This document shows positions 6,868 to 40,078 of a stretch of 40,117 bases of DNA, one piece after another (position 1 is the stretch's first letter; the number at the start of each line of letters is the position of its first letter). The stretch is from a virus, in the IMG/VR virus record IMGVR_UViG_3300015261_000106, positions 1 to 40,117 of that record. One strand, written 5' to 3'. Made by a program: the position numbers and the translations under genes. The notes beneath the pieces are model-generated. The model did no database searches, was not told the origin of the DNA, and saw only the letters and a list, made by a program, of their open reading frames with translations.

Positions 6868-6913
6868 ATCATCCGGACGGAATGATTAGTCAAAACAATT
6901 ACCGAAATAACGA

Positions 6914-6939
6914 AGCAACCCGGTTCAAATCGGGTTGCT
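6914..6939. terminator. Hairpin between convergent repressor and abi transcripts
   Basis: A perfect 9-bp stem AGCAACCCG/CGGGTTGCT around an 8-nt loop. Minus-strand transcripts would continue into a T-rich stretch, and plus-strand ones into GTTCTAGATTT. It probably ends the abi transcript and perhaps also the repressor transcript. Confidence 0.65.
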
Positions 6940-6977
6940 CGTTCTAGATTTATCGTGGCGGTTAGCTGATCGTGACG

Positions 6978-7976
6978 TTAAATGCCAAAAAGCTGTCTAG
7001 GGAATCCTTTTTCATCGGGTAAGCCAAGCGCCGCGAAGGGGCAGCCAGGTACCTGAGGCTTCGAGTCTATGACGTCTGCCACTTGGTGGATCCACTGAGA
7101 GTTGGCGCCGATGGTTTTAACTAGAAACCAGAGAACTGCAATGAGTCCGTATAGGCGGCAAGTGGCGTTCGCATCAAGGTTGAGTTTTTTAAAATATGCA
7201 TCGTTCGGGACCGTAGGCAGTGGGTTTGCCGAAATCTGATTCCAGATACGACCGTGGTGGGCGCATCGATTCCGCAAAGTGTTGATCTCCTGCAGCCATT
7301 CTTTGAGGGTCCTGGAATTGGTCAGCCCGAGCCGGCTGCTGATCCTGTTGCGATGGCTGTCTTTAAGGATCTCGAAATATTTGGATGCTGTACCGAAGTC
7401 CCAAGCTTCAACAACTACCCAGAAGGGCATCGCTCTATGGTGCTTGCGATGCCATTCGATGCTGTCCTCCCGACTGCGACGAATTTGTTCATCTTGACGC
7501 GCCGACCATTCATCCCAAATGTTCCGTTGCTTACCGCTTTTTGTGGTGAAGGTCCTGGCTTGAGAGGGATTGATGAAACTGACGTCTTGATAGGCCATCG
7601 GGTCGTGGTAACCCACCTCATGAGCGATCACCGATCGTACATGAACCTCTACGCGCTCAATGGCGTCGAGCATCAGTTGGCGTAGTTTTTTGTCGAACAG
7701 GTAGATTTCAAAAACCGAGTCGAACGCTGTACCTGGAGTAAATGTGTTTTGCCGCAGGGGCTTTTTGCTGACGGTGCACAGCGTCACGTTACCGTTTGAA
7801 TCGCGGAGGAATTCGCGGCATGGATACCAGAACCCACTCAGGCGGTAATAGCCAACCTGACTAAGCTTACGTTCGGTGCGAGGAGCATCAGCGATGTGCA
7901 TGCCACGGCTGGCGAGCAGCGCGCATAGATCGCTGTAGGATCGAAAAGGCTTTGGCGGAGCTAATTGCGGCGACAT
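6978..7976 (-). CDS. Abi_2 family (AbiD/AbiF-like) abortive-infection protein, HEPN fold
   Basis: 332 aa from the ATG at 7976. It has the family signature: an N-terminal LLASRGMHIAD, then KLSQVGYYRLSGFWYPCR, and a HEPN-type R-x4-H motif (RNRCAH, about 235-240) followed by HGRIWN. Abi_2 proteins block phage growth at the cost of the cell, and the HEPN motif suggests an RNase. A TTG at 8003 would add nine residues but lies in the terminator of the small RNA upstream; ATG 7976 has GGACAAAGG before it. The gene faces the repressor module and sits downstream of a promoter-RNA-terminator unit that probably controls it. Confidence 0.88.
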   Translation of the reverse strand: MSPQLAPPKPFRSYSDLCALLASRGMHIADAPRTERKLSQVGYYRLSGFWYPCREFLRDSNGNVTLCTVSKKPLRQNTFTPGTAFDSVFEIYLFDKKLRQLMLDAIERVEVHVRSVIAHEVGYHDPMAYQDVSFINPSQARTFTTKSGKQRNIWDEWSARQDEQIRRSREDSIEWHRKHHRAMPFWVVVEAWDFGTASKYFEILKDSHRNRISSRLGLTNSRTLKEWLQEINTLRNRCAHHGRIWNQISANPLPTVPNDAYFKKLNLDANATCRLYGLIAVLWFLVKTIGANSQWIHQVADVIDSKPQVPGCPFAALGLPDEKGFPRQLFGI

Positions 7977-7987
7977 CCTTTGTCCAG

Positions 7988-8047
7988 AAAAAAGAAGGCC
8001 CAAACATAATGCTGGACTAAGCCAACACCAGAGGTTCGGGCGCTATT
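7988..8047 (-). ncRNA. Candidate small structured RNA upstream of abi
   Basis: Read on the minus strand from the predicted start near 8047. GCCCGAAC (8041-8034) pairs over all 8 positions (one G-U) with GTTTGGGC (8005-7998), which is followed at once by CTTCTTTTTT, a Rho-independent end. Inside, TGTTGG pairs with CCAGCA around a 6-nt loop. The RNA would be about 60 nt and end a dozen bases before the abi ATG, so abi is reached only by readthrough. This is the arrangement of type III toxin-antitoxin loci. Small RNAs are reported, to my knowledge, beside some AbiF-type genes. Confidence 0.65.
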
Positions 8048-8053
8048 GAATTA

Positions 8054-8082
8054 ATTATCTGCGCTTACCACCGCTGAGTCAA
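8054..8082 (-). promoter_or_regulatory. Near-consensus sigma70 promoter for the abi small RNA
   Basis: TTGACT (8082-8077), a spacer of exactly 17 bp, and GATAAT (8059-8054) on the minus strand: five of six bases match in each box. It points at the small RNA and the abi gene and starts transcription about 7 bp before the first arm of the RNA stem. It is one of the strongest-looking promoters in the window. Confidence 0.75.
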
Positions 8083-8106: not shown

Positions 8107-8400
8107 TCATGGACTGGTCCCATACATGCCCCGGCCGGGTTTGGACGTGACGGCCGTCACCACGTCATCGATGACCGCCTTGCCCATCACCGTAAAATAA
8201 TGCGCCGCCCAAGCGTGTCGGTCAGTGTCGCGAATGAACGCCGCGTCCTCGGCGAATGACTTCGCCAGGAATAGCAGGTCCGACGCCATTGCCAATGCCT
8301 CATAGACGGGCACGCCAGAGTTGACCTGAAAAAGCGGATTGCCTGAGCAGTAGCCAAAGGGGGTCAGACCGACGGTTTTCTCTTCTGTGTGCTCGGTCAC
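8107..8400 (-). CDS. DUF3077 small protein
   Basis: A 97-aa protein with the DUF3077 pattern: TPFGYCSGNPLFQVNSGVP near the start, EALAMASDLLFLAKSFAED, and HAWAAHYFTVMGKAVIDDV. The family is widespread in Pseudomonas and has no established function that I know of. The start is GTG at 8400, with AAGGGG 7 nt upstream. The GTG overlaps the stop of a 31-aa leader ORF as GTGA. A conserved structured leader precedes both. The helical central part resembles that of the DUF6124 protein at 18234, whose gene has the same leader, so the two are probably distant relatives under the same control. Confidence 0.82.
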   Translation of the reverse strand: MTEHTEEKTVGLTPFGYCSGNPLFQVNSGVPVYEALAMASDLLFLAKSFAEDAAFIRDTDRHAWAAHYFTVMGKAVIDDVVTAVTSKPGRGMYGTSP

Positions 8401-8497: not shown

Positions 8498-8720
8498 AGC
8501 TCCTTGACCGATAGGAGCTGCCACTTCTCGTTACCAAGCGAATGGGTGGCAGCTGCGCGCAGGTTGGTAAACCGGGAGTCAAGGAAACCGGCACGCCCGA
8601 GAGCGTCCCACGCACAGCCGCCATAACACAATGTTGCAGGCGTAAAGAATCAGCCATTGTGAATGGCGCTGTTGCGTAACTCATCGGGTTACCAATCCCG
8701 GTCGCTGAATTTGTAGCGAC
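8498..8720 (-). promoter_or_regulatory. Structured leader, copy 1 (upstream of DUF3077)
   Basis: Read on the minus strand, this region shares block after block with 18591-18811: an upstream GTCGCT/AGCGAC inverted repeat followed by CGGG, an ATGGCGG-TGTGCGTGGGA stretch, a short hairpin with changed but still paired arms (ACGCT/GGCGT here, AGACC/GGTCT there), then AGCTGCCAC pairing with GTGGCAGCT (8554-8546 with 8524-8516). The same AGCT also pairs downstream: AGCTCCT (8519-8513) with AGGAGCT (8504-8498), hiding the AGGAG of the leader ORF. The two stems exclude each other. This suggests a cis-acting switch or antisense-type phage RNA (C4-like is one possibility that I cannot test). Confidence 0.65.
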
Positions 8721-9126: not shown

Positions 9127-10545
9127 ATGAGTAATTATTTTTACAGATTCAGATCAGTCCAACGACTTTTAGGCAGAGAAGGTGAGCCTGGTGAACTCGA
9201 GAAGCTGGAGATCTATTTTGCTTCACCTTCCGAATTAAATGACCCTTTGGAAGGGTACAAGGATATTTTTTGGTCCGGAGATATTGTGGTGTGGCGCAAT
9301 CTAATTCGTCACTATAGCACATGTCTTATACAGCAAGTTTTTATTCATTTTCTATCGAGTGAAGATGGCGATGCTTGTGGGGAGATATTAATTCACAATG
9401 TTGCAGAAGATCTTCCTCCAAAAATTCAAGAGTTGCTTGCCGAAGTTAATGAAGAACTGCTCAGTTTGGACGAGGTTTCGAATTACCTAAAAAATTTGTC
9501 CGAGTTGAAAAGGCAAGTCAGGCGAATGGAGCTTGTATTTCACTTGAGGTCATTGCATTCCGTGATTTTAGCTTTGGTTTTCGAAAAGATGCAAGCGGCT
9601 GGGATTTGTTCGGAAGAATATGCGAGTCAATTTTATACAAGAAAAGATACCTACATTCAATACTGTTCCAAAATTGTTGAGGCAATGAAAGATTTGGAGG
9701 GCGGTGATTCGTTAGGAGCCCTCTTTGACACAATCGCATCAACAATGGCTCAATCGAAAATAATCAGTGAGAAAAAAAAGTGGCCCAAAAATTGGTTTTA
9801 CTTGGTGTCGGAGTTTCCAGAGAGATTCTGCAGTGCACTGGAGCTGCTAACGCATCCTGCTTGGTATACAGCCTGCTTCATGTCAGAGTGCTCAAACTCC
9901 TCTATATGGGGTACGTATGGAGGGAATCATAAAGGCGTGTGTCTCAAATACAAAGCTAATAATGACTCCGCCGGAAATATAACTCTGCCCATGGAGCTTC
10001 CGAGCAGCTGGGGTACAGGGGGGATAGGGCGCTCTGTAGTCCCTTTGAGTTTTCATAAGATAGACTACGAGAAGTCGTTTATTGAAATTGATTTTTTTAA
10101 ATCACTCGGAAATCTACCCAAGGCTGTTATTGATAGGTACTGGTATTGTGATAAGGATGAAGTAAGGAGTTCCTGCTCGGAGGGGGTCTCTACCGATGAA
10201 TGGCGGGCTCGATATTGGAGTAGTTTTATTGAAATTGTTACGGTGAAACTGAGTGACTGGCGGTTTGAAAATGAGTATCGCTTATTGTTCTATCCTCTCA
10301 TGGATGTTTCTAATTCTGAAAACAGAAAGGCTACATATAAATTTGAGAATTTGGAAGGGATGATTTTTGGAATGAATACCCCTTTGCAGGACAAGTTGGA
10401 TATAATTAGGGTGGTTGAGCGACTATGTAATAAGCACAGGCGTAAGGATTTTAGTTTTTATCAGGCGCGGTATGATTCGGTGAGCAAGTCAATCGTGCAT
10501 GATAAGCTAAATCATATTAAGTTGGACGTCGAAGACTTTTCGTAG
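9127..10545 (+). CDS. DUF2971 family protein
   Basis: A 472-aa protein with the DUF2971 hallmarks: an N-terminal YRFRS, EIYFASPSELNDPLEG, a central ACFMSECSNSSIWGTYGGNHKGVCLKY, and near the end WRFENEYRLLFYP. The molecular function of the family is not established to my knowledge; members often occur in accessory regions and near defence genes. The gene is far more AT-rich than the structural genes, has its own promoter, and stands alone between two leftward units, all signs of a recently gained moron. The middle insertion (about 60-230) is helical and not recognised. Confidence 0.8.
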   Translation: MSNYFYRFRSVQRLLGREGEPGELEKLEIYFASPSELNDPLEGYKDIFWSGDIVVWRNLIRHYSTCLIQQVFIHFLSSEDGDACGEILIHNVAEDLPPKIQELLAEVNEELLSLDEVSNYLKNLSELKRQVRRMELVFHLRSLHSVILALVFEKMQAAGICSEEYASQFYTRKDTYIQYCSKIVEAMKDLEGGDSLGALFDTIASTMAQSKIISEKKKWPKNWFYLVSEFPERFCSALELLTHPAWYTACFMSECSNSSIWGTYGGNHKGVCLKYKANNDSAGNITLPMELPSSWGTGGIGRSVVPLSFHKIDYEKSFIEIDFFKSLGNLPKAVIDRYWYCDKDEVRSSCSEGVSTDEWRARYWSSFIEIVTVKLSDWRFENEYRLLFYPLMDVSNSENRKATYKFENLEGMIFGMNTPLQDKLDIIRVVERLCNKHRRKDFSFYQARYDSVSKSIVHDKLNHIKLDVEDFS

Positions 10546-18590: not shown

Positions 18591-18811
18591 GACGCTCCTA
18601 GGGGTAATGGAGCTGCCAATCTCGCTGCTATACGAGGGGGTGGCAGCTGTACGCGGGTTAGCAGACCGGACCCCTAGAGCCGGCAGACCCGAAGGTCTCC
18701 CACGCACAACCGCCATTACATAGGTGCAGACAATAAAGCCTACTCTTGAATGCAGAGCATTGTGCGTTTGGGGAGTCAGGCTGCTAAACCCGATCGCTGA
18801 TTTTCAGCGAC
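18591..18811 (-). promoter_or_regulatory. Structured leader, copy 2 (upstream of DUF6124)
   Basis: This is the second copy of the leader at 8498-8720. On the minus strand: a GTCGCTGA/TCAGCGA inverted repeat, CGGG, ATGGCGG-TGTGCGTGGGA, the AGACC-TTCG-GGTCT tetraloop hairpin (18698-18685), then AGCTGCCA (18648-18641) pairing with TGGCAGCT (18618-18611). GCTCC (18613-18609) overlaps that second arm and also pairs with GGAGC (18598-18594), which contains the ribosome site of the DUF6124 gene. One stem must open for the other to form, which would switch translation on or off. Confidence 0.65.
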
Positions 18812-18980
18812 TCGGAAACGATAGAGCCCCGGCCCCATGGCGCACAAGCGGGCGGATTCTGTCTTAGTTGTAGGCAAAGGCGCAAGGTAGCGTAGCCTAT
18901 GGATTGGTATGCGGTGTTGCTGGGTATGTGGCTGTAGGGCTCAAGAGCCACCTTCGCGTGAACATTAAACATATCGGTGT

Positions 18981-23144: not shown

Positions 23145-24173
23145 TCAGCGCGGTAGAGAGAGCAAGAACTTATCAGTTACCTCAAACAAATAGTCTGTTG
23201 GGTCATTGCCTTTCTCTTTCATGTGAAGCATTTTGCAAATTTTTTCGTCATCAAGAATGATAATCAGCTTCCCTGCCTCACGCATGGCGCCTTGCGCCAT
23301 TTTGGTTGCGCTTTTGTGGGCGCCTTTTCTGGTAATCATGATGGCTACTTTTCGCAGCCCTTTCTCAAGGAGATATTTTTCAGTTGTTAATACTTGACCC
23401 TGTTTGATTGGCTCTGCATAATTTTTGAATTCGAAAAGGATATATCTGCTGTCAAGATGGTGCAATATAAAATTCCAGAACTCAGTAGAAGGTCTTATTC
23501 TGCATATAAAATCAAATCGATTTAGCTCGTCATCAGTTCTTTGTTGTTTCTTCCAGCCGGTTAGATGATCCTTGAATAAGTATTCAAGGATTTCTCGGCA
23601 CTTTTGTTCATAATCACTCCATGACGATTTTCCTGGTGTTATGGCGCGCAGCTCTTGACATAGGTCGGTGCCTTTGGTGCTCAATGGGATGGTGTTTTTA
23701 AGCTCGGTCTTTGGTTGTTCGAGGAGTTTGGATACTGAGTCGTAAGGTTGTTCAACACTAATGGATGAATCGTTCGGATCAATTTCAAATAGCGCATGCA
23801 ATTTTTCTGTGATCTCGGGAGAGTCAGAGGCAAGATGCAGTAAAAGTTGCCTGTCTAAAACTGAAATCCCATATTCATTTTTGAGGTGGCTTCGTTGTGC
23901 GTCCGTTATAACGCAGGATGCGATAAGCAGGCCTCTTACATTTGGGTCCTTGTCCATGTCCAATCTAATTAGTCGTGCGGCGTTGCTAAGTAAATTCAGC
24001 TGGGCGCGTTGTGTCTTATAGAATTTTATTTCGACTACCCATGTTATGTTGCCTTTTTTGACGAAAAAGTCGGCGCGGGTAGGTTTTTTGGTCGGTATGG
24101 AATAGCCGTTATGGCTGAGCAGTGCGGATATCGTTTTCTCAAAAGTTAGGCCTGTTTCGGTTAGGTCTCTCAT
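23145..24173 (-). CDS. Accessory protein with two restriction-endonuclease-like domains
   Basis: 342 aa from the ATG at 24173, preceded by GGTGAG (an ATG at 24191 lacks a ribosome site). Two separate PD-(D/E)xK-like cores are visible. The first, within residues 1-70, has GLTFEKTISALLSHNGY, ADFFVKKGN and WVVEIKFYK, an Mrr-like arrangement. The second, at about 195-250, has RFDFICRIRP and RYILFEFKNYA. The gene is AT-rich, lies between tail genes S and V, and has no methylase partner nearby. It is best read as a defence nuclease moron; the target is unknown. Confidence 0.7.
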   Translation of the reverse strand: MRDLTETGLTFEKTISALLSHNGYSIPTKKPTRADFFVKKGNITWVVEIKFYKTQRAQLNLLSNAARLIRLDMDKDPNVRGLLIASCVITDAQRSHLKNEYGISVLDRQLLLHLASDSPEITEKLHALFEIDPNDSSISVEQPYDSVSKLLEQPKTELKNTIPLSTKGTDLCQELRAITPGKSSWSDYEQKCREILEYLFKDHLTGWKKQQRTDDELNRFDFICRIRPSTEFWNFILHHLDSRYILFEFKNYAEPIKQGQVLTTEKYLLEKGLRKVAIMITRKGAHKSATKMAQGAMREAGKLIIILDDEKICKMLHMKEKGNDPTDYLFEVTDKFLLSLPR

Positions 24174-24225
24174 TGCACTCACCGATCTCATTAAAAAGGT
24201 TATTTGCTTGGGGCTAAGTTGGGAG

Positions 24226-35996: not shown

Positions 35997-37646
35997 TTAA
36001 TTATGTTTTGCCATCCATTCGCCAAAAGTGGGTAGCGCTTCCTCGTTTGCAAACGGAAGTGTAATGAATGAACAGTATTGCTCTGCACGACTATATTTGT
36101 CTGGCTTGCATAAAAAATCAACTTCATATTTCTTCAGGATTTCGAATGTTTTTTCATCGCCATAAGGATCTTTTATATTATCGGTCAGATAAAGTTGATA
36201 AAGAAGAAGCCAGTGTTCGTCTATGACGTAGCGCGGACAGTCAAGTATTGAATTGCAATAGTCAACAACTGCGTCTGTGGCGGTCTTGAATTGAGATAGC
36301 ATAGTTAATGCGACGCAATCCTTTGAGCCAATAATTTCTTTTGTAGATTGTTCTGAAGGTTGTGCTTCTAGTCTTTCAAGGTAATAAAGAGCCCAGCACA
36401 TTCCGTCCGAGCGGCGTTGTAATGCATTGGTGTAAATTATTCCATTGAGTTTGTCTATGAGGCTATCTTTGTCATAATAGTCTACGCGTGCATCAATCTG
36501 TTCTAGGTATGGCAATAGTATAGGATAGTGCCATGCGAGGTTAAGTGTATACTGAAAAATATCTGCGGCTGCTCTATCCTTTAATCTTCGACAAATTGCA
36601 GCGACGGCAAATTTCAAAATACTCCCATCAGGTGTGCTGTTATTTAAGCGTACCGCGAGGTCCATAAATTGAAACGCGTCAGAGGTGTTCATGAAAGCAA
36701 TTTGCCCGTCATCACGTAATAGAGGCGGTAGGGCTGCCGTCAGCGTAGACACCCAGTGCTCTTGTAGTGGCTCGGGAAGTTCCACTATAGAGGTTTTTGC
36801 TAGGTTAAGAGCTAATTTGTATCGGCTGAGCTCCTTCCCTAAATCTCGAATAAATTCTTCAGCCTCAGCATGGGTATTACATAGGGCAGTGTAGTCGTCT
36901 ATGTAACGAACGAAGGAGTATTTCGTTCTTAGGCTTCGATCAACTGCTGCTAAGATGATCTCGACCGCAATGCTTGAAGACGCGGGACCAATGGGCAGTC
37001 CAGATGTTTCCCCGCGCTTTGCTGATCGTAACGCCTCATCAAGTTCACTGCTCCAATGAATATCTAGTTTCGGTTCAGTAAGTTTGGCTTTAGCTTCATC
37101 GAAGCCCTGAATAGCCCACTCTAGCGAATGCGTATAAATAGATCCAAAGCAGTTGGCTACGTCTGTGTGAGCACGAAATTTTTTGCCGAAGCTTTGTTCC
37201 ACTGAGGTCAAAGCTTTGGTTTCAGGGTCTTCATAGTTCATTATCAAGATGCGCCCGTCAATGTGGCAGTCGACAGTTATTGCGCTATTAGGATCTTGGA
37301 TGGACTTTTTTATGATGTCAATGTGTTTCTCCAAAACACTAAAAACTTTAGCGTAAGCCATGGGGTGTATCAAGCCTAGGACGCGAGAGACATTATTATA
37401 GCGAGTGGATCGGTATTCGGCTAAATCAAATCCCAGCCTTCTTCGAGCTTTGCTTAGTTGTACTTCCTCTAGAAGCTTGTGGGCAATTTCTGGCGTAAAA
37501 CGTCGCGTGCAGATGCTCGGTGGAAGTTCAGTGGCAAGGTCTTTTTGATTTGGGAAGTAATTCCACCTAGTAAGAGCTTCCAGAAAGTGTCGCTCCTCAA
37601 AGATAGCGGGGCTGGTGCTGATATGAGTAACGGCAAGATCTTTCAT
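35997..37646 (-). CDS. Reverse transcriptase, Abi-P2/DRT type
   Basis: 549 aa from the ATG at 37646 (569 aa from the ATG at 37706; neither has a good ribosome site). RT motifs in order: motif A TDVANCFGSIYTHSLEWAI (about 161-179), motif B GLPIGPASSSIAVEIIL (216-232), motif C YIDDY (248-252). A long helical C-terminal half follows. There is no maturase or integrase domain, so it is a stand-alone defence-type RT. Length and P2-like context recall the P2-family RT known to exclude T5 (Abi-P2). The gene is AT-rich and follows a structured intergenic region. Confidence 0.88.
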   Translation of the reverse strand: MKDLAVTHISTSPAIFEERHFLEALTRWNYFPNQKDLATELPPSICTRRFTPEIAHKLLEEVQLSKARRRLGFDLAEYRSTRYNNVSRVLGLIHPMAYAKVFSVLEKHIDIIKKSIQDPNSAITVDCHIDGRILIMNYEDPETKALTSVEQSFGKKFRAHTDVANCFGSIYTHSLEWAIQGFDEAKAKLTEPKLDIHWSSELDEALRSAKRGETSGLPIGPASSSIAVEIILAAVDRSLRTKYSFVRYIDDYTALCNTHAEAEEFIRDLGKELSRYKLALNLAKTSIVELPEPLQEHWVSTLTAALPPLLRDDGQIAFMNTSDAFQFMDLAVRLNNSTPDGSILKFAVAAICRRLKDRAAADIFQYTLNLAWHYPILLPYLEQIDARVDYYDKDSLIDKLNGIIYTNALQRRSDGMCWALYYLERLEAQPSEQSTKEIIGSKDCVALTMLSQFKTATDAVVDYCNSILDCPRYVIDEHWLLLYQLYLTDNIKDPYGDEKTFEILKKYEVDFLCKPDKYSRAEQYCSFITLPFANEEALPTFGEWMAKHN

Positions 37647-38067
37647 TTTAATTGGCTCGTTATGTTGGCGATCTGAGAATAGCAGTAGAAGCGCAGGGGT
37701 CGTCATATGCTGGCGCGCGCCGTCATCCCCCCACCACGCCTACGGGCTAAATTGGTCGCTTTTCTTGCACGTCTTCACTGGCCTAGGAGCATGGCGTGGC
37801 GGGTGCAAGTGGACAGCCACCGATAGGCAAATAGCCTGCGGAATTCTGCGGCAGCTGGGCCTGGCACGGCCGTCCGAGCGAATAATGAGCTTGGGATTTT
37901 AGGAGAGGTTTCCGGAAAAAAGTAATTTGGTTAGGAAGCGAATAGCGCTGTGCCTGAAGCGCTAGAGAGTCAGGCTTCAATGGATTACTCCCTAAGGAAA
38001 TTCTGAGTAATCCACAAGGTGATTTTTCTGTAAGTTATTGATATTAAAATATAAAAGAGGTTGGGGA

Positions 38068-38423: not shown

Positions 38424-39641
38424 CTACTTGCGATGGTGGGCAAGCTGCAACGCCTTATAAGCCGGAAGAAAAAAGTTCGGAATTTCATCTTCGGTCTGGA
38501 AGTCCGCTAGTTTCGTATCTAAAGAAGGTTTTTCGGTGGTTTTGTCTCGGTGAATCATCCGGGTTTCACGCTTTAATTTTCCGTTAACGTCTAAGGCAAT
38601 AACTTCTAAGAATTCACCCGTGATTGGTAACTCTCGAATCGGGATCGAATACAGATTTTTGGCGCTGCGAAGCCAGCCCTCAGATATCCATAATATAAAA
38701 TTTGGCTTCAAGTACTGTACTCTGTCAGCGATTGTTCTCCAGAATATATACTTGTCGGCTTGATCATCAAAAAAGGTTGTAATCATGTCAATTGGCTTTG
38801 TTGTGGAGTCGAGCAAGAAACACATGGGGGTATGGTATCCGTCGCTATCAAAAATAGTTTTTGCGTATTTCCCATAGTGCTCTACCAAACCTTCAACGCT
38901 TGCAGTGGGGGCGCTTTTGTAAATGCCAGAGAGAGGACTGTTCTTAATGGCGTTTATATCGATTGGGATTCTCTTGTTACGTACAACGACCGAGTCTTTA
39001 GAGTTTAGCTTGAAGTATATTGTTTCACGCGGGTTGGAGTTTTCTACGCCTGACTCACTGGGTTGTCTAATATCTTGATTTAATGCTGCACCTAGATGGA
39101 GAGCCAGATTGTTGCAGCAATTGTATAGCCTTGAATATATGTATTTGAAGGCTTGCAGAAGTTCCCAGTTAGGTAAAGTGTTTGCTACCCAGGTGCGTTC
39201 TGTTTTAACGACTGCTGAGTCGGATATAGAACTAGGTAGGCTATGTTTAGCTAGTTTTCTTAGTTTTTTAACGTTAGCGTCAAGTAGTTCTGTTGGCCCG
39301 CAGGGGATGCTGATGTCTTGTTCAAGAATGTAAGAATAAAATAATGTGACAGATAAGGAGCTGTGCATGTCGAGGTCTCCTTCTTTTTCTATGGTGTTTC
39401 TGGAGTCTTTGGCCCAGGTCATTAGGGTGTCATTGGCCCATGCTTCTATAATGTTCTTTTTATACCAGGCTTCATAATCTGGGATTTCTGATTTTAATTT
39501 CTGAATCAAAAAAGTTACGGTGCGGGAGGTCTGTAGGAATTGATTGGTGTTCAACCGGAACAGCTCTGGATCGAAATATGTAGACTCACATTGAAGTAGT
39601 AATTGGGCTAAATCCTTAAGGCGGCGCTCCCATCTATACAT
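38424..39641 (-). CDS. Unrecognised 405-aa protein
   Basis: A real-looking gene: an excellent ribosome site (AAGGAG, six bases before the ATG), AT-rich, and 26 bp from the tRNA-Gly fragment. I do not recognise the protein. The N-terminal 150 residues are helical, with YRWERRLKDLAQLLLQCES, YFDPELFRLNTNQFLQTSRT and a motif WAKDSRNTIEKEGDLD that looks conserved. The C-terminal half is mixed alpha/beta, ending in KALQLAHHRK. No membrane segment is seen. Placed at the cargo-rich right end upstream of the RT on the same strand, it may be a defence protein, alone or with the RT; that is inference. Confidence 0.7.
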   Translation of the reverse strand: MYRWERRLKDLAQLLLQCESTYFDPELFRLNTNQFLQTSRTVTFLIQKLKSEIPDYEAWYKKNIIEAWANDTLMTWAKDSRNTIEKEGDLDMHSSLSVTLFYSYILEQDISIPCGPTELLDANVKKLRKLAKHSLPSSISDSAVVKTERTWVANTLPNWELLQAFKYIYSRLYNCCNNLALHLGAALNQDIRQPSESGVENSNPRETIYFKLNSKDSVVVRNKRIPIDINAIKNSPLSGIYKSAPTASVEGLVEHYGKYAKTIFDSDGYHTPMCFLLDSTTKPIDMITTFFDDQADKYIFWRTIADRVQYLKPNFILWISEGWLRSAKNLYSIPIRELPITGEFLEVIALDVNGKLKRETRMIHRDKTTEKPSLDTKLADFQTEDEIPNFFLPAYKALQLAHHRK

Positions 39642-39994: not shown

Positions 39995-40078
39995 AGGGTT
40001 CAAATCCCTATCTCTCCGCCATTATTGAATACGATTAAGCCCCTGAAATGGTTGAACATTTCAGGGGCTTTTTCGTTT
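39995..40078. repeat. attR: 84-bp direct repeat (right prophage end)
   Basis: This copy of 84-167 has one difference. It begins in the T stem of tRNA-Ser but is joined to phage sequence, so only the last 27 bases of the tRNA are present and the copy is non-functional as a tRNA. It includes a second copy of the tRNA terminator (40037-40073). Confidence 0.93.

Follow-up and report, generated by a model that had tools for sequence, protein, structure and literature searches.

A Hairpin RNA and an AbiF-Family Gene Form a Probable Type III-Like Toxin-Antitoxin Module on a Prophage

We describe a locus in which a gene of the AbiF/Abi_2 family is directly preceded by a short structured RNA. The window, by which we mean the whole stretch of DNA that was analysed, is the virus record IMGVR_UViG_3300015261_000106 (40,117 bases), in which tail- and capsid-type genes can be recognized by eye. 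With a probability that we put at about 0.85, the locus is a type III-like AbiF-AbiFr toxin-RNA-antitoxin, or abortive-infection, module carried on a prophage. Toxicity, RNA-protein binding, neutralization, the trigger and an anti-phage effect are all proposed here from published relatives, and by the same analogy the RNA would act as the antitoxin, the role already suggested for it in the original prediction.

Results

Promoter, Hairpin RNA and Terminator Upstream of abi

All elements of the locus lie on the minus strand. The original prediction placed a TTGACT-N17-GATAAT promoter ahead of the RNA, and we located its -35 hexamer (TTGACT) at 8077-8082 and its -10 hexamer (GATAAT) at 8054-8059. 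This is a sigma-70-type promoter with a 17-nt spacer and 10 of 12 matches to the consensus, and its -10 hexamer ends 5 nt ahead of the conserved RNA. The promoter is conserved in 67 homologous loci, nearly all of which retain TTGAC. The -10 hexamer ends 5-6 nt upstream of the RNA in 62 of the 67, and 87% of them score 9/12 or higher as promoters, compared with 4% of shuffled leaders. The conserved RNA therefore starts at the likely transcription start.

The AbiFr-type non-coding RNA, approximately 60 nt long, occupies 7988-8048, with a predicted 5′ end near 8048 and a 3′ end in the T-run. Its lower stem of 8 bp, assigned by folding and covariation, is formed by the 5′ arm GCCCGAAC (8034-8041) and the 3′ arm GTTTGGGC (7998-8005), the same outer stem that had been noticed from the sequence. 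Above it is a conserved 3x1 internal loop in which CUC (8031-8033) faces a single U (8006), bordered by an invariant C-G pair (8034-8005) and an invariant U-A pair (8030-8007). The upper stem-loop (8007-8030) had been described as a 6-bp hairpin, which has to be corrected: the helix has 9 bp, G-U pairs included (8030-8022 with 8015-8007), and is closed by the loop CUUAGU (8021-8016). The 58-nt segment folds at -22.5 kcal/mol (z = -5.0), a value equalled by none of 200 shuffles. Nearly all of the RNA is helix, the unpaired remainder being a conserved 5′ tail of 7 nt, the small loops and the U-run.

Behind the lower stem is a U-rich tract (7988-7996), which serves as the predicted terminator and contains the T-run at 7993-7988. 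The 12 nt that follow the stem contain 6-9 T in all 45 loci counted; the lower stem is therefore both a part of the RNA and a terminator stem. The T-run is followed after only 11 nt by the abi ATG (7976-7974), in good agreement with the predicted order of a ~60-nt RNA, a terminator and a dozen bases to the start codon. Because this gap leaves no room for a second promoter, abi would be reached by readthrough alone, as had been proposed. On the far side of abi, a consensus scan indicated a terminator-like hairpin at 6913-6940.

Abi Is Predicted to Resemble PbAbiF

The abi gene (6978-7976) encodes a protein of 332 amino acids from the ATG at 7976. It matches Pfam PF07751 with an E-value of 3.5e-52 (177.8 bits, against a cut-off of 25.6), and PADLOC calls the product AbiD (3.6e-51). 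The HEPN RNase motif R-N-R-C-A-H (7257-7274), which conforms to RN-x3-H and to the R-x4-H pattern first read from the sequence, aligns to RNSCCH of PbAbiF, and its residues R234, N235, A238 and H239 are invariant across 50 relatives. An AlphaFold2 model of Abi has a pLDDT of 96.1. When this model was compared with the PDB by Foldseek, the sole significant match was 8VZ6, the PbAbiF dimer bound to its ncRNA (E 2.1e-15, TM 0.72/0.80), in which the catalytic R and H align with those of Abi at 27% identity in the fold alignment. A sequence profile match between the two proteins gave an E-value of 4.8e-43. The domain and the modelled PbAbiF-like fold both place Abi in the AbiF/Abi_2 (AbiD/F) family.

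The Hairpin RNA Is Conserved and Its Stems Covary

The hairpin RNA is a real, selected structure. Abi relatives were gathered from plasmids, from IMG/VR and from 84,980 species genomes, and their leaders bear the same RNA element. In an alignment of 28 leaders, changes on both sides of a pair (compensatory) were found in 10 of the 17 pairs and 93.1% of the cells pair, while sliding the partners as a control lowered pairing to 26-48%. In 30 held-out leaders, double changes were found in 14 of the 17 pairs and the lower stem was paired in 99.2% of the cells, with the reservation that these leaders were aligned by fitting them to the structure, a procedure biased towards pairing. The covariation score was reached by 0 of 500 shuffles in the building set and in the held-out set alike. 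These loci share descent, so that none of the counts are independent.

The covariance model built from the leader alignment (R1, whose E-values are rough) matches the window at 8048-7991 with 73.7 bits, a score to be read with the window sequence being a training member. R1 was run on homologous loci totalling ~600 kb, and each of its 36 matches at E < 0.001 lay directly upstream of an Abi_2 gene. Conservation of the two stems upstream of related abi genes, whose absence the original prediction had named among the results that would refute it, is thus borne out by the covarying pairs and by the placement of these matches.

Two pairs depart from this pattern. C16-G55 and U20-A53, which flank the internal loop, are fixed in 58 of 58 leaders while the neighbouring pairs covary. 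We interpret this invariance as the probable mark of a site that is read by its sequence inside a covarying frame. The apical part of the RNA, on the other hand, is variable in the held-out leaders yet remains paired.

The surveys of genomes sampled ~500 of them under strict filters that lose weak matches. In a survey of the Rahnella family (198 genomes) the seed genome alone matched. We also looked for phage-borne decoy RNAs with two exact patterns in viral contigs; 201 stretches were retrieved. R1 gave only 5 matches on the 160 loci scored from this search, all on contigs already known to bear abi, so that no decoy was found among these loci.

The RNA and abi Behave as One Unit

The window and four other loci (L011, L012, L013, L016) share nucleotide homology from 8047-8048 to the vicinity of the abi stop codon, and their flanks are unrelated; homology to a fifth (L025) begins at 8049. 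The homologous block reaches other genera, and it starts at the RNA and not in the upstream gene for a DUF3077 protein. The distances between the RNAs and those between the proteins are correlated (Mantel r = 0.73, reached by 0 of 2000 permutations), a correlation that is expected because co-inheritance demands it.

The 299 Pseudomonas genomes surveyed contain 14 intact abi genes of the window's clade (43% identity or more), each of them directly preceded by the RNA. R1 found 13 of these RNAs in the survey, and the divergent fourteenth, in G116, was confirmed at 29.9 bits. In the same genus, abi was broken, truncated or missing behind 16 of 29 RNAs. These toxin-less RNAs are what one would expect if the antitoxin could not be lost before the toxin; abi is also a far larger mutational target, and the surplus of RNAs lacking a toxin over toxins lacking an RNA is therefore taken as consistent evidence and not as proof.

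Orphan R1 RNAs, scoring up to 78 bits and lacking an intact abi, were noted in Pseudomonas loci L152-L155, L163, L166 and L174-L178. Their promoters seem to be kept where read, and they may be solitary antitoxin RNAs or the products of recent decay. In L176 (1501-2224, plus strand) an R1-like RNA (51.8 bits) leads into a frame that by eye resembles a NYN-domain RNase; this is a single case and may be a recombination scar.

Two Alleles Occupy One Site in E. coli

In Escherichia coli, two versions of the RNA-abi pair are present at the same chromosomal site, represented by AR_0017 (allele A) and ACN001 (allele B). They share a left flank that is 90% identical and reaches ~20 nt into the RNA, as well as a right flank that is 97.6% identical. 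Between these flanks both the RNA and abi differ from one allele to the other; the A and B proteins are 51% identical, and both RNAs match R1. The RNA plus the toxin gene have been swapped as a block.

Among 5,426 E. coli genomes, allele A was represented by its RNA in 73 and by its abi in 73 (a near-full gene in 72), and allele B by its RNA in 55 and its abi in 55. The equality of these numbers, which were compared as totals and not genome by genome, argues against mismatched pairs. In EcPNK004, which has allele A, abi is cut short beside an IS21-like element and the RNA is still present. The E. coli records listed carry no annotated feature where the RNA lies.

Discussion

Relation to Known Systems

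The layout of the locus, in which a predicted structured ncRNA with its own promoter lies upstream of the toxin gene and a terminator separates the two, is that of AbiF-AbiFr. In the closest described case, the AbiFCd-RCd22 pair of the Clostridioides difficile phi027 prophage, the toxin is neutralized in trans by direct binding of the RNA RCd22, and its toxicity requires the catalytic R and H (PMC12373285). Both systems are prophage-borne, have an Abi_2/AbiF protein with a HEPN R-x4-H motif, and are arranged as a promoter, a short RNA, a terminator and a toxin gene reached by readthrough; they probably also have the abiF-type RNA core in common. The PbAbiF-AbiFr pair (Zilberzwige-Tal et al. 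2025), which together with its relation to Cas13 is described in summary passages of PMC12373285 and PMC12737573, likewise encodes its RNA in cis. The type III build attributed to the locus at the outset is upheld by the fold match to PbAbiF with its ncRNA (8VZ6) and by the layout of AbiFCd-RCd22 (PMC12373285).

There are also differences, some of which weigh against our reading. RCd22, 98-132 nt long, contains the abiF motif twice and has its terminator as a distinct element, whereas the window has a single motif of ~60 nt whose lower stem is also the terminator stem. The window Abi is ~27% identical to the C. difficile phage homologues. The ToxIN, AbiQ, TenpNI and CptIN type III systems resemble the locus in that an antitoxin RNA and a terminator lie ahead of their RNase toxin. 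However, their toxin fold is unrelated to Abi, which among solved structures matched PbAbiF alone, and the antitoxin RNA of the ToxIN type consists of tandem repeats (PMC12373285). We found no tandem RNA repeats in the window or in the leaders read, which have a single 58-nt unit. Since features of the ToxIN type such as these repeats are absent, the locus is to be classified as AbiF-AbiFr and not as ToxIN.

The Rfam family RF03085 provides a further point of comparison. Its model (gathering threshold 37 bits) gave no match in the window, even at E-values up to 10, which counts against our reading, and none above the cut-off on 16 records; the Rfam abiF model found nothing in loci L001-L006, nor did R1 on the RF03085 locus L140. 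A hand alignment, on the other hand, showed that C[CUC]U...A[U]G, which forms the RF03085 core at consensus positions 10-14 and 20-22, is equivalent to C[CUC]U...A[Y]G of the window, with residues C10, CUC, U14...A20, U, G22 corresponding to C16, CUC, U20...A53, Y, G55. Both RNAs are situated upstream of abi, and in L140 the outer stem is followed by a T-run. It is the frame around the core that differs: in RF03085 the outer stem has 6 bp, the internal loop is 1x6 and the apical loop is tiny, whereas the window RNA has a continuous 8-bp lower stem, a long apical stem and no 1x6 internal loop. The core was detected in the leaders of 13 of 59 distant abi genes, as compared with 1.3% for shuffled sequences and 0.7% for random windows, and also in RNAs of alphaproteobacterial abi loci. 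The two families look like sister branches of one RNA superfamily. The kind of system is thus a known one, while the RNA variant is absent from Rfam, and its novelty is relative to Rfam only.

Some distant Abi_2 genes (L062, L070, L071, L073, L074, L081, L082, L203) directly follow a frame that by eye resembles HsdS, and no leader RNA was seen at these loci. The arrangement suggests that they are part of type I restriction operons and controlled in some other way.

Proposed Mechanism and Alternative Explanations

In the mechanism that we propose, a single promoter of the constitutive type would give rise to many copies of the ~60-nt hairpin RNA, which would be abundant because the lower stem and U-run of the hairpin itself would usually halt transcription. 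Occasional readthrough would yield the abi mRNA and a little Abi protein, presumably a HEPN RNase that dimerises. Through the region of its internal loop (C[CUC]U/A[Y]G) the RNA would bind Abi and keep the RNase blocked. Should phage infection or loss of the element stop RNA synthesis or remove the RNA, the longer-lived Abi, once freed, would cut RNA and cause cell arrest.

Part of this evidence would look the same if the hairpin were a transcriptional attenuator only, keeping abi expression low with no binding or neutralization in trans. A hairpin and U-run just before the gene would be expected in that case too, the lower stem and U-run are terminator-shaped in 45 of 45 loci, the RNA of the window ends 11 nt ahead of the ATG, and a phage-responsive leader has been described for AbiD1, as has a short terminated leader transcript (PMC12373285). 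An attenuator, however, needs no invariant asymmetric internal loop, and it is precisely C16-G55 and U20-A53 that are fixed in 58 of 58 leaders amid covarying neighbours. The same core recurs in RF03085 RNAs and in those of alphaproteobacterial abi loci, and the related RCd22 binds and neutralizes its toxin in trans (PMC12373285). We therefore consider pure attenuation unlikely. That the hairpin is simply the terminator of the DUF3077 gene (8107-8400), which lies upstream on the same strand, and stands before abi by accident is scarcely credible: the hairpin's own promoter stands between the two, the hairpin is kept where the DUF3077 neighbour is absent (for example in L157, L158, L164 and L165), and homology in several genera starts at the RNA and not in DUF3077.

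The reported ancestry of Cas13 in AbiF (PMC12373285, PMC12737573), a link that the original prediction also named, raises the question of whether the RNA could be a guide that steers the HEPN RNase to its targets, as crRNAs do for Cas13. This is very improbable, as the RNA is mostly helix without an unpaired segment of guide length, its apical part varies but remains paired, and repeats are absent. A type III-like AbiF-AbiFr module thus remains our preferred reading. More speculatively, and in our opinion rather doubtfully, the branch might form a distinct AbiFr class in which the RNA is antitoxin and terminator at once, one hairpin setting the dose of both RNA and toxin; cognate pairs would diversify and be exchanged as blocks, and solitary RNAs that remain once a toxin has been lost would neutralize incoming AbiF elements as anti-addiction or anti-defence elements.

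Cas13 is reported to have evolved from AbiF and its RNA partner, yet few such pairs were found described in the literature searched. The present work adds a covariance-supported RNA family, with relatives in Gammaproteobacteria and Desulfobacterota, that Rfam 15 lacks. The two E. coli alleles amount to a natural experiment, by which the specificity of RNA for toxin becomes directly testable in a standard host. If our reading is true, one hairpin and one gene make a clean minimal system for how an RNase came under RNA control.

Prophage Setting

An 84-nt direct repeat (98.8% identical) is present at the ends of the window, at 84-167 and 39,995-40,078, where it overlaps the 3′ part of a tRNA-Ser(CGA) gene, and an integrase-like gene was recognized by eye at 1096-2310. 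From these features we infer that the window is a P2-like prophage integrated in a Pseudomonas-like host, the host being deduced from the flank and from gene similarity. DUF3077 was considered as a third component of the module and rejected, as many loci lack it and in others it is broken.

In L014 (2694-4961) and L018 (2716-2983) the RNA-abi pair is found directly behind tRNA-Ser(CGA), the site used by the prophage of the window. Direct repeats of ~173 bp, spaced by just ~2.1 kb, enclose the pair in L014, where no integrase was seen, and the arrangement appears to be that of a minimal mobile cassette.

The minus strand of the window also encodes two C4 antisense RNAs together with a C4 target (c4-a1b1), at 8542-8628, 18636-18720 and 18773-18824, and a block of DUF3077 and C4 also flanks the abi RNA in Pseudomonas L020, L023, L049, L154, L156, L159 and L163. 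Beside the abi region is a DUF2971/PDC-S31-like protein (9127-10545, plus strand), and inserted among the tail genes is an Mrr_cat/PDC-M36A-like protein (23145-24191, minus strand); either may be a defence gene. Near the right end of the prophage, PADLOC identified a Drt4 reverse transcriptase of the DRT4 defence type (35997-37706, minus strand; 8e-213), which is adjoined by a gene for a protein of 405 amino acids (38424-39641).
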